DNA of 64,000 nucleotides from Coptis chinensis (Eukaryota > Streptophyta > Magnoliopsida > Ranunculales > Ranunculaceae), in assembly GCA_015680905.1 (NCBI GenBank), contig CM027381.1, positions 61,322,501 through 61,386,500 of the forward strand, given 5' to 3'. Position 1 is the first letter of the stretch. Every line of letters begins with the position of its first letter. The notes beneath the pieces were generated by a model. That model saw only the letters and a list, made by a program, of their open reading frames with translations. It had not been told where the DNA came from and made no database searches. The position numbers and the translations under genes were made by a program. Shown here piece after piece: positions 52,829 to 56,790 of the stretch.

Positions 52829-53178
52829 GTAGTTCTCCTGGTGCTTGATGTGCATGCATGCATAGCGAGGGATGCACCTCAATTCCGCCAACTTGTTGTT
52901 TTCCTAGTGCATAAATTTCGAGTTGATCACTCGCTTCTCGAGAAGTGAGTTAATTTACTTTTATGTTTACCACTCGGTTTGGATAACGTTGTTTCCCTTT
53001 ATGAGTTTAAACATGTTTTTGTTTCTAATGTAAGTCTTTAATTTTTTTTCAGGCGTGGTGCTTTGATAATCCATCGGCTAGGTATTCTTTTGGATCTTTG
53101 GCGTGTGTACTTGGAACTCTCCACAATTCTTGAGGGAGAAGTCGACTTGGATTTTTCGTCCATCATGGTTTCAGTTCT
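52829..53178 (+). pseudogene. VAC14: Captured VAC14 gene fragment, first part
   Basis: Two exons with proper borders: 52829-52944 and 53053-53178. The first encodes 'IARDAPQFRQLVVFLVHKF' ending in 'LLEK', the second continues 'RGALIIHRLGILLDLWRVYL' and 'STILEGEVDLDFSSIMV'. This matches the C-terminal half of plant VAC14, a HEAT-repeat scaffold of the PI(3,5)P2-making Fab1/PIKfyve complex at the vacuole or endosome. The match is lost after 'VSVLV'. It is inside the CACTA element on the transposase strand. Confidence 0.85.
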
Positions 53179-53420
53179 CGTAATATTATGTGAGAACATC
53201 CACAGCGATGCCGGGGAGAGAATTTATTACAGTTTTTGACATATGTGTTGTCTGCTGATTTGGCATATGATAGTTGTTCACAAAAGTCAAGATTGTGGAT
53301 TCCAGTCCAAAGGTACGTCCATCTAGTCGATAACACACTACTACCAACAGCATATTTTGTAGGAAGACAAGAGAGAATGTAATGAAGAATATTATCGTAA
53401 ATTGCTAATTTTATCACCAA
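53179..53420 (-). pseudogene. Captured F-box gene fragment, opposite strand
   Basis: On the minus strand from ATG at 53420 the frame reads 'YDNILHYILSCLPTKYAVGS' and 'SVLSTRWTYLWTGIHNLDF', a clear F-box of the plant FBD/LRR class, which links substrates to SCF ubiquitin ligases. The stretch after it is out of frame with any LRR. It is wedged between two pieces of VAC14 that face the other way, so it is a separate capture or insertion. Confidence 0.75.
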
Positions 53421-53556
53421 TCTCCATTTGCTACTCTGTCCTTCATATACTTTTGCATCTTAGAATTTTCCATTGAAGCACTTTCATCCATGATATCTTG
53501 CAATATCAAGACCGGGAAAAAGACCTAATTTACGGTGTACTTGTCTTTCTTGACAG

Positions 53557-53685
53557 TTTACCAAAGACGCAATTTCCGTGGATTCACCACGGGTAGAGGA
53601 AGATATTAATGTTAAGTTCTTGGTCCAGCTGGACAAGTTGATCCGCTTGCTCGAGACTCCAATCTTTTCTTACCTTAGACTGCAG
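53557..53685 (+). pseudogene. VAC14: Captured VAC14 gene fragment, second part
   Basis: This exon, flanked by AG and GT, encodes 'VEEDINVKFLVQLDKLIRLL' then 'ETPIFSYLRLQ', the next conserved block of plant VAC14. The exon start ('FTKDAISVDSPR') does not match, so the exon was joined imperfectly. Intervening VAC14 exons are missing and replaced by the F-box fragment. Confidence 0.85.
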
Positions 53686-53740
53686 GTGCATAGCTCATTT
53701 CATTTTGTGTAATCTCCAAAAGCTGTGTTTACATTTGCAA

Positions 53741-53940
53741 TTTTTTGTAATGGTCTATATTATTTCAGTTTTGTAAACCACATTCGACAGGCTAGAGATA
53801 CTGAAATGAGCTGATTTTTTCCTAATTATATTGGAATCAATTTTTGTAATGGTCTATATTATTTCAGTTTTGTAAACCACATTCGACAAGGCTAGAGATA
53901 CTGAAATGAGCTGATTTTTTCCTAATTATATTGGAATCAA
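53741..53940. repeat. 99-bp tandem duplication in a captured intron
   Basis: The block from TTTTTGTAATGGTCTATATT to TATATTGGAATCAA occurs twice, 99 bp apart, differing by about one base (an extra A in CGACAAGGC). It is therefore a very recent duplication. Confidence 0.9.
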
Positions 53941-54398
53941 TATAATTAGGGCTCTTCAAGCTAGGTTCTTACCTGCTGTACAAGTTCCTCAGGTCCACTC
54001 TTAGCATCTGCACTTTGTTCAGAGTTTCTCATCTCAATGCATGTGAAATTTTCTGTTTTCTGTTTTGTTTCTATGGATGGATATCCTGAACTTTTTAGGA
54101 ACTTAGTACCATTTAATAATTACTCCAATAATTACTAAATCTTTTGCAGTCGATCATTACTGGTCGACTAGTTTAGGTGTTCTGTTCGTAAATTACTTGA
54201 AATACATTTTTTCTTAAGTTCACAACGACCCTTCACTTGTTATACAAATGAAGGCTGAATTGCTCGTTAAGAGTGTTAAAAGATTTCATGAGGGAAGACG
54301 TAGTTACTAATAATTAAAGTAGACATTCAATACTCATGTTGATTATTTTTTTCATCCAAATAAATTTATAACTTTTGTTGATTTTTTTTTTGTTATAG
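53941..54398. other. Captured intron or spacer
   Basis: No gene. AT-rich, continuing the context of the VAC14 fragment. Confidence 0.4.
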
Positions 54399-55105
54399 TT
54401 GGTGATGCTTCTCTTGGCTAGAAGAAGAATTAAAAGTCATGGAAATTCCAATGCAAGTGGAGAAAACAGTTCTTCTTCCAAGCTAGGTTTGATAGAGAGT
54501 ATTGATGAAGAAAATAATGTGAAATCCGGTAAATGATGAGGAGAAGTTCAAGTCGCTTTGAAAAACGTCATGGAGATGAGAGTACTTGAGACTGTTTATG
54601 AAGAAGATGAGAGAACCTGGGCATCTCCTCCAATCACAAACGAGGTTCCTGATCCCATTTTATCAGCTTCTCCAGTTGGTTCAGGGAAAGCTACTCCATT
54701 CAAACATCTTCTTGAATCTACACCAAATAGGCTTGTTCGTAAAAGGACTTTCAAGAAGATGCAGAAAACAAAATCAAGGGAGAAACTCTCTCACTTCTTC
54801 ATTGAGCTTAAAAAGTCTGCTTTCTATCCTGTAAGTTCTTAATTTGTACTATTTAGATACTCCACATATATGGTTCCCTGAACGTAGCATTATGATCTCC
54901 ATGGTTTAACAAGATATTCTTGCTAAGGTTATTTTGACGTATAATACATTGATGTTACAAGTAATTGCATTTTGTATATTTAAACAGGTAATTGAGTACG
55001 ACAGACATACACTAGTTCGGCATGCTCTAGCTGAGAAATTCGACGAGATTGAAAACTTCTTTGGTTTTCCACAACTCCTAAGCGTCATGCCTTCTTTGCG
55101 TGAGG
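54399..55105 (+). pseudogene. Captured fragment of an unrecognised gene
   Basis: Two exon-like pieces: 54399-54830, AG before and GTAAGT after, and 54988-55105, AG before and a GT after. The first holds 'ERTWASPPITNEVPDPILSA' and a basic stretch 'RKRTFKKMQKTKSREK'; the second holds 'YDRHTLVRHALAEKFDEIEN'. Two stops near 54533-54539 lie between 'KSGK' and the next ATG. The frames look like true coding sequence, and borders fit plant splice sites. I do not recognise the protein; it may be a plant-specific nuclear or cytoskeletal protein, which is a guess. Confidence 0.55.
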
Positions 55106-56551
55106 TTTTACCTATATAGATAAATTGGTTATTACTTCTTTATTATCCTTTTGTTTTTCCCGAAACCTTCATTTAAATCGAAGTTACGAGGTTTATTCAA
55201 TCCTCTATTGAGATTGCAGCTATCATGAGCCCCTATGGAGCCATTTTCAAATATTTTATCATAGGGCTAAATTTTCAGGACACGGACAAGATGCGGTGAG
55301 TCTGATTTATTCTTTCAGGGCTCATGATCACTTAGATATACAACATTTCAGCTTCCATTACAATGCTGCCATAGAAATAGCAAAAACTCTGATCCAAATT
55401 GCATGTAATTGGGTTTTGCATTCACTAACTATGCCAATGTTCAAAATCATAGCATCCCCTTCATAAATAGATATGAGAGTGGCACTCATGAACTTATACA
55501 CCCTAGGGTGGACTCTGAGAATCGTGGAATTATGGGACAAAGTGGGCAAGCGTTTCCCATGGCTGGACTAGTTCTCGTTTGTAACGCGAAGATGACTTAA
55601 AATCGAGGGTAACTATGCAGTCATTGATGGTCCTAACAAGTAACATGGCAGTTAAGATCTCACAAGCAAGTAAAATTCTATTGCAAAATGCTAAATCTTT
55701 TTCTTTTTTGGTCGCATTACCCCCGGATTTTGTTCTTGAAATGTCAGGTCACGCATTTGCTTCTCATGTTGGTGGACAAATGTGGGTTTACAAACAAACC
55801 TAAAACCGAGCTGCAAAATTCAAATTGCGCGATGAGCATTCAACGCCGATCGCTCACCCATGCTCACACAAAGGCCTCCGGTATTGCCACCACAGCCGCA
55901 TCAAGGACCGCCCTTCATGCGGCCTGTTGGAGGTCCTCCGTACTCGATTCATACCGTCTTTAACTACAACATCGGATTAATGCCACCAATTCTTGGGACC
56001 CAGTTTGCACCATTTGATAGCTCTGAACCCCAGGCACGTGATGCTTCTCGTCTTCCAAGTTTCCTTTGTAGGCTTTGTTTTCTTTTTTGTTAAGCACAAA
56101 ACAACATTGTGTTCATTAACATGGAATGTAGAGAGAGGTCTGTCGGTTGCTCCCTTCTACCTCAGGGGATCTTAAAAGGGTAAGTTTTCATTTTCTCAGG
56201 TTGAAATTTAACTTTGTTGGGTCCAACTTATTGAGATTTATAGCTACTGATATTGGCGACTATTGTCGTTCAGGGCACCCTTCACCGGTTTTCACTTTAG
56301 CGCCCGCCTTTCGGGATGATATGTTTGACCTCAAGTTCATCCAATATAAGCACTTGATGCTCTTTTACCATTTTTTGTCCAATGCACTTGGAATTACATA
56401 AGTTAGTTTCGCATCGGGGACTTCACTCTTAATTCACGTGACATCCTAATATTTATGTTATGGCATGAAGCTGCCGTAGTACACTAACGAGATATGCATC
56501 GCTAGGATTCTCTTTTGATCTCATTGTTACTTTGTTTGCCTCTCTTACCAG
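55106..56551 (+). other. Patchwork of short exon-like pieces, unidentified
   Basis: Several short open pieces follow each other without a common frame: 55200-55300, 55615-55800 ('LPPDFVLEMSGHAFASHVGG'), 55866-56030 (Pro-rich, 'PPQPHQGPPFMRPVGGPPYS') and 56240-56400 ('DMFDLKFIQYKHLMLFYHFL'). The Pro-rich piece and the last piece look like real protein sequence. They may belong to one or more captured genes, possibly the same as the membrane protein that follows. Confidence 0.4.
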
Positions 56552-56790
56552 GTTCTTGCTGGTAGCTACTTCTCGGTGGCAGGAGCTCTTGTGGGTCTAC
56601 TGAAACCTGGTACGATGAGCATGTTTGGGACACTTCTTGTCATATGGGGCCTTGTCAAGGAAGGGCTTCTTGGGAAACCTGTGAATACAGATCCTGCAAA
56701 AGCATGTTGATTGCGCTAGTATGTGCTTTCACTTGTATAAAGTATGATGTCAATAAAATTGTTAAAAGTAGTCGACTCGACCCTTGGTGA
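56552..56790 (+). pseudogene. Captured 3' end of a small membrane-protein gene
   Basis: After an AG acceptor the exon encodes 'VLAGSYFSVAGALVGLLKPG' and 'MSMFGTLLVIWGLVKEGLLG', two hydrophobic spans, up to 'PVNTDPAK'. A frame change follows; 56704-56790 then encodes a third span ('MLIALVCAFTCIKYDV') and stops with TGA. The layout suggests the C-terminus of a plant three-span membrane protein whose function I do not know. A short deletion at 56698-56704 seems to cause the frame change. Confidence 0.55.

Follow-up and report, generated by a model that had tools for sequence, protein, structure and literature searches.

How does a transposon come to carry pieces of several unrelated host genes, one of them lying in reverse between two parts of another? 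This question is raised by a CACTA (En/Spm-type) element in a 64,000-nucleotide stretch of the Coptis chinensis genome (GenBank assembly GCA_015680905.1, contig CM027381.1, positions 61,322,501 to 61,386,500 of the forward strand), hereafter termed the window, in which all positions are counted from the first base. The element encodes TnpD-type and TnpA-type transposase genes, and harbors fragments from four or more host genes that are unrelated to one another: VAC14, an F-box gene, a PHO4-family phosphate transporter, and a small membrane protein. The explanation we favor, with a probability of about 85%, is that an element with both transposase genes accumulated these fragments by stepwise, inherited capture.

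Structure of the element

The element and its transposase genes comprise the following features:

44093-57221, plus strand: whole CACTA (En/Spm-type) element, 13.1 kb
44090-44092 and 57222-57224, one on each flank: target-site duplication ATT
44139-44260, no strand: 5' subterminal CCACGG/CCGTGG repeats
45906-49540, plus strand: TnpD-type transposase gene (Pfam domains and stop-to-stop open reading frames)
45906-46130, plus strand: Transpos_assoc (Pfam)
46832-47470, plus strand: Transposase_21 (Pfam, E 1.6e-84)
48065-48223, plus strand: DUF4218 (Pfam)
49118-49342, plus strand: DUF4216 (Pfam)
49740 to about 52367, plus strand: TnpA-type gene (similarity to C. chinensis relatives)
56886-57198, no strand: GCCACGG-N7-CCGTGGC palindromes of the 3' subterminal region (7 of the window's 10 matches)

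A reading made from the sequence alone had placed a complete CACTA element, with perfect ends and an ATT duplication, at 52829-56790; the completeness and the duplication hold, while that interval is the 3' part of a longer element and the ends are not perfect. The terminal CACTACAAGAA occurs in inverted orientation at both ends, as CACTACAAGAAAA on the left (44093-44105) and as CACTACAAGAATA on the minus strand on the right (57209-57221), with 12 of 13 bases identical. With up to two mismatches allowed, the bare 13-base motif has seven matches in the window against 4.2 expected, which is not above chance, and the case for the element therefore rests on the paired ends, the ATT duplication, and the transposase domains. 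With up to three mismatches allowed, the window contains 10 copies of the palindrome GCCACGG-N7-CCGTGGC, where shuffled sequences have a mean of 0.3: two copies are near the left end, seven are in the last 340 bases, and one is elsewhere (5637). The features that define the CACTA superfamily (terminal inverted repeats, a 3-bp duplication, subterminal repeats, and TnpD-type and TnpA-type genes) are all present, and this is a structurally complete but degenerate CACTA element of C. chinensis.

The TnpD gene includes stop-to-stop open reading frames at 46763-48256 and 48692-49540, and a Pfam search of the minus strand across the transposase region (44093-52299) returned nothing up to E 0.1. For TnpA, one C. 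chinensis relative (P0125) has the Transposase_24 domain (Pfam, E 9.3e-9), for which no Pfam match was found in the window's own plus-strand frames in the same region. The TnpA gene in the window is interrupted by a stop at a place where its C. chinensis relatives read through. By eye, 49890-50520, within the first TnpA intron, resembles plant mitochondrial DNA.

Host gene fragments behind TnpA

The host gene fragments lie between the end of TnpA and the 3' end of the element, and part of this cargo is included in an annotated gene model that starts in TnpA:

52829-52944, plus strand: VAC14 exon piece a (acceptor CAG, donor GT; 38 of 39 residues identical to Aquilegia P0007)
53053-53170, plus strand: VAC14 exon piece b (Pfam Vac14_Fig4_bd; 32 of 39 residues identical to Aquilegia P0007)
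53304-53396, minus strand: F-box gene piece in an open minus-strand frame (53166-53459), antisense to the VAC14 blocks on either side
53593-53685, plus strand: VAC14 exon piece c (Pfam; donor GT intact; 31 of 31 residues identical to Aquilegia P0007)
53742-53941, plus strand: 100-bp tandem duplication after VAC14 piece c
54399 to about 55296, plus strand: PHO4-family phosphate transporter piece, made up of partial exons at 54399-54830 (carrying stops and a frame break), 54988-55083, and 55192 to about 55296
56552-56772, plus strand: 3' exon from a gene for a small plant membrane protein, carrying an internal deletion (match to C. chinensis P0128)
49740-55116, plus strand: annotated TnpA-VAC14-PHO4 fusion model P0001 (IFM89_015146)

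The sequence-only reading had described two VAC14 pieces with intact splice sites. The gene is recognized by Pfam (Vac14_Fig4_bd, E 2.6e-9 in one frame, and 1.2e-4, below the cut-off, in another), and it is represented by three pieces in two blocks; a PDB search with the VAC14 exons returned no match. GT/AG sites are kept at most of the exon borders of the VAC14, PHO4, and membrane-protein pieces, including the donor and acceptor between pieces a and b. The end of piece b and the start of piece c, however, lie inside the exon series of the parent gene, with the middle exons absent between them. Capture of VAC14 as a single block was set aside, since these mid-series exons are gone and the F-box region stands in their place.

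The F-box piece had likewise been placed antisense between VAC14 pieces, and this placement is borne out. When embedded in a 1600-residue frame, the Pfam F-box match falls below the cut-off (E 0.02), whereas the isolated piece narrowly exceeds it (E 3.6e-4, 20.8 bits against a cut-off of 20.5). NCBIfam returned nothing for this piece, and its one PDB match, to a collagen adhesin (E 0.017), was judged to be chance. These results give fair support to a putative assignment of 53304-53396 to the F-box family, at the level of the family and not of a particular gene. A palindrome, CCGTGG-N5-CCACGG, which resembles the subterminal repeats of the element, is found at 53576-53592, where the F-box region meets VAC14 piece c. 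Additionally, an exact 12-base repeat is present close to the end of the match to one TnpA relative, P0124 (52729-52740), and close to the end of VAC14 piece b (53158-53169); we did not use it as microhomology for template switching, as 52401-56888 contains three such repeats outside the tandem duplication and about one is expected by our estimate.

What had been an unrecognized two-exon piece is identified here as the PHO4-family transporter, with a third partial exon. It was compared with Thalictrum P0008, to which it is identical at 25 of 42, 53 of 91, 26 of 32, and 15 of 18 residues in four stretches. The in-frame stops and the frame break in its first exon, together with the cuts inside the exon series at VAC14 pieces b and c, indicate that the captured pieces have decayed.

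The membrane-protein piece, which the earlier reading had already taken for the 3' end of such a gene, is identical to C. chinensis P0128 (IFM89_006312) at 50 of 51 and 22 of 23 residues, and a few residues between these two stretches of P0128 are missing from the window. A second C. chinensis protein, P0183, is identical at 46 of 51 and 15 of 23 residues. Because of its higher identity, P0128 or a near copy of it is the likely parent of this piece. With at least four host genes represented, the expectation of at least three in one CACTA element, with one piece inverted, is upheld. No gene was assigned to the interval from about 55300 to 56550, in which Pfam searches of 55361-55567 (minus strand) and 55836-56090 (plus strand) gave no credible family.

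All 567 residues of the annotated fusion model P0001 can be rebuilt from the window, using 14 exons and 13 introns, every one of them GT-AG. The exons follow the order TnpA, VAC14, an exon antisense to the F-box frame, VAC14, and PHO4. The antisense exon (53274-53312) encodes 13 residues and overlaps the Pfam F-box stretch by nine bases, and the stop-containing stretch of PHO4 is skipped by means of a 75-base intron. Given this model and its 13 GT-AG introns, a chimeric RNA from the locus is plausible, as a prediction from the gene model. Transcription that reads through from the promoter of TnpA, or from the SCC2-like host gene described below, may lead to splicing of the captured sense exons into such RNAs, and the F-box piece would then be transcribed as antisense. 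IFM89_015146 is a transposon-host fusion sequence and can distort counts of gene families in this medicinal species; IFM89_019453, IFM89_035011, IFM89_010077, and IFM89_037321 are probably fusion models of the same nature.

Related copies in C. chinensis

Among the best 120 of 327 protein matches are nine C. chinensis entries. P0128 and P0183 represent membrane-protein genes in which TnpA is absent, and the other seven have TnpA-type residues. Four of the seven (P0125, P0126, P0207, and P0226) have TnpA and no identified cargo, whereas P0178 joins TnpA to AMPK1_CBM (Pfam E 3.3e-26), P0124 to Pescadillo_N (3.3e-4) and ArgoL2 (2.2e-7), and P0127 to TAF4 (5.3e-7). If P0001 and a further model, P0006, are included, at least nine C. 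chinensis models bear TnpA, and at least five of them carry recognizable host pieces.

Two layers of shared change are present among these protein models. The first is the membrane-protein piece with one deletion junction, common to three models: P0124 and P0127 carry the membrane piece of the window with the same internal deletion junction, across which P0127 reads QKHVDCA in another frame, and the window encodes the same residues. The simplest explanation for a deletion-bearing piece common to three models is one capture in a common ancestor.

The second layer consists of VAC14 piece b, the antisense exon, and the broken PHO4 exon, which occur together in two models. P0006 (IFM89_019453), located on another contig (85.2 Mb) than P0001 (98.7 Mb), includes TnpA residues, VAC14 piece b, the 13-residue antisense exon, and the first PHO4 exon, in that order. 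Its PHO4 portion ends in a frameshifted DEEKFKSL, which the window encodes in a different frame. Furthermore, positions 7, 10, and 11 of VAC14 piece b are H, G, and I in both the window and P0006, and R, C, and V in 111 of 111 comparison sequences. Isoforms and close relatives are counted among these 111 correctly placed sequences, and VAC14 of C. chinensis is not represented; two misplaced matches, as well as P0012, P0023, and P0037, which are without the motif, were left out. Upstream of its TnpA residues, P0006 also holds SOR_SNZ (PDX1-like) and Sedlin_N, which may be either more cargo or a fused neighbor.

Taken together, the shared runs and the cargo that differs between branches are best explained by a single lineage that captured host sequence repeatedly and passed it on. 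Probably, the copies inherited the patchwork, and cargo was added or exchanged along the way. From the order of shared changes, the membrane piece appears to be the older, with the VAC14-F-box-PHO4 block on one branch and other cargo on others.

Origin of the cargo

Gap repair with template switching is a mechanism by which transposons may capture host sequence. Here, the pieces may have been copied in during the repair of breaks within the element, through interrupted gap repair and template switching. Alternatively, the capture step could have been the fusion of neighboring element copies, which a review describes for Pack-CACTA capture in Arabidopsis. Transposition would then spread the copies, with cargo accreting stepwise while it decays.

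Several observations weigh against this history. The other copies are protein models of a single species, and gene finders can fuse neighboring genes, so the greatest caution applies to SOR_SNZ and Sedlin_N in P0006. The matches of P0124 to Pescadillo_N and ArgoL2, and of P0127 to TAF4, are all below the Pfam cut-offs, and P0124, with its C-terminus DPAKAC, has only one residue and a stop past the deletion junction. From the shared block, P0006 has VAC14 piece b and neither a nor c, the first PHO4 exon only, and 13 residues of the F-box region. No C. chinensis VAC14 parent was found in the best 120 of 619 matches, and the shared H, G, and I could therefore be native to the Coptis gene; similarly, none of all six PHO4 matches is a C. 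chinensis parent, and an F-box parent was not sought. The stops and the frame break in TnpA and PHO4 speak against a working product. Finally, segmental duplication could account for the spread of the shared block.

This last alternative, in which the second VAC14-antisense-PHO4 copy arose through duplication of the locus and not by transposition, we consider unlikely. It would suit evidence that consists of protein models, and SOR_SNZ and Sedlin_N, which are absent from P0001, could be sequence that neighbors the second copy; however, the block follows directly on TnpA residues in P0006, and P0124, P0127, and P0178 represent the same family with other cargo. We give equally little credence to nested insertion, whereby other gene-carrying transposons (e.g., a Pack-type CACTA element with the inverted F-box piece) entered the element and later eroded. 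The two hexamers of the palindrome at 53576-53592 are the only ones in the interior of the element, as the remnant of such an insertion might leave, although by our estimate about two would be expected there by chance. Between 44106 and 57208 there is no CACTACAAGAAAA-like end with up to two mismatches, and a duplication around the F-box piece was not searched for.

A group of host genes, or an assembly join, that CACTA ends flank by chance was rejected as highly improbable. In its favor, all of the parent genes are known from plants and a single gene model extends over several pieces; against it, the ATT duplication lies on both sides, the subterminal motifs exceed chance, and a second model, from another contig, has the pieces in the same order after TnpA residues. 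The sequence-only reading had itself named this order of pieces outside any CACTA element as the sign of a host feature; in the only other instance we found among protein models, P0006, the run likewise begins with TnpA residues of the family. Selection for a useful TnpA-VAC14-PHO4 protein, for which the annotated 567-residue model with its GT-AG introns could be cited, is similarly implausible in view of the 75-base intron over the PHO4 stops, the exon antisense in the F-box frame, and the difference of VAC14 piece b from Aquilegia at 7 of 39 residues.

Stepwise, inherited capture thus remains our preferred reading. As a tentative extension, and one we hold to be rather less probable than not, this Coptis CACTA lineage may possess a heritable cargo region behind TnpA, in which the membrane-protein anchor is kept, copies gain differing fragments, and TnpA works as an exon trap by joining captured exons to the transposase RNA. 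If so, transposase-bearing elements, and not only stripped, non-autonomous ones, would shuffle host exons, and the steps could be ordered by shared damage. The order of capture is seldom readable in CACTA elements, and here a relative order is given by the shared deletion and the other changes in the models.

Comparison with known gene-capturing CACTA elements

Multi-gene capture by CACTA elements is already well documented, and the Coptis element adds a member of this kind; the suggestion that a patchwork from several loci is unusual was too strong, considering the soybean element with five fragments and the maize Pack-CACTAs that often draw on several loci. Tgm-Express1 of soybean is a 5.7-kb CACTA element in intron 2 of F3H, with fragments of five host genes and demonstrated chimeric transcripts (PMC1947982). 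The Coptis element, which likewise appears to be intronic, resembles it in holding exons and introns from several genes unrelated to one another, with splice sites that can be used, but at 13.1 kb it retains recognizable TnpD and TnpA, and its fusion is predicted by a gene model. The Tpn1 family of Japanese morning glory is also En/Spm-type, with captured host sequences between conserved ends and chimeric transcripts (PMC5105172). In Tpn1, the host sequence replaces the interior of non-autonomous copies, whereas the Coptis cargo is behind TnpA and the transposase sequence is retained.

Pack-CACTA elements of Arabidopsis and maize have captured coding DNA inside CACTA ends, in maize often from more than one locus (PMC8903248). 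The Coptis element resembles them in its captured coding DNA between element ends, and differs in that it matches transposase, which excludes an element from the Pack-TYPE group (PMC8903248). On wheat chromosome 3B, 140 CACTA captures were described, some with exon shuffling, and with the same captured gene in several copies (PMC4290129); the Coptis family differs in having a shared anchor piece with varying neighbors, as seen in gene models. CACTA-like elements of Chenopodium combine transposase domains with captured gene fragments, which are located 5', upstream of ORF 1 (open reading frame 1), and not downstream of TnpA as in Coptis (PMC8978399). In a term search of the main text of Coptis genome papers, CACTA was unmentioned, and within that scope the family is undescribed. 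The Coptis family and its layered history look to be newly seen.

Setting in the host gene

The element is flanked by exons of another gene:

43600-43870 and 58560-60080, either side of the element: SCC2/NIPBL-type exons (PDB matches)

The right flank matches chains of Nipped-B-like protein in PDB (E 4.4e-16), as do both flanks when joined (E 1.6e-6), in an alignment that spans from the left into the right flank. We take the matched chains to be human, and SCC2 to be the name of the plant gene. From these matches, the element appears to be intronic in an SCC2-type gene, with which it shares its orientation. No SCC2-type domain was found by Pfam in either flank. By eye, the left SCC2-type exon contains a stop and a frame break, which may reflect pseudogenization or sequence error.

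A second CACTA-like left end is discernible by eye at about 40370-42060, with a cluster of CCACGG/CCGTGG at 40392-40626, beyond which, from 41158, lie parts of a Methyltransf_29 gene (Pfam E 3.2e-14). A right end to match it was not found; this is perhaps a second gene-carrying CACTA element in the same host gene. The sequence CACTACAACAGAA at 60159-60171 could be the end of a further CACTA-like element in the SCC2-type gene, at a level of match that is expected by chance. A search of the window DNA against a plasmid collection gave no match, as would be anticipated for a plant sequence. Elsewhere in the window, a direct repeat of ∼1.47 kb, with 92.7% identity between its copies, is present at 14893-16355 and 28231-29697.

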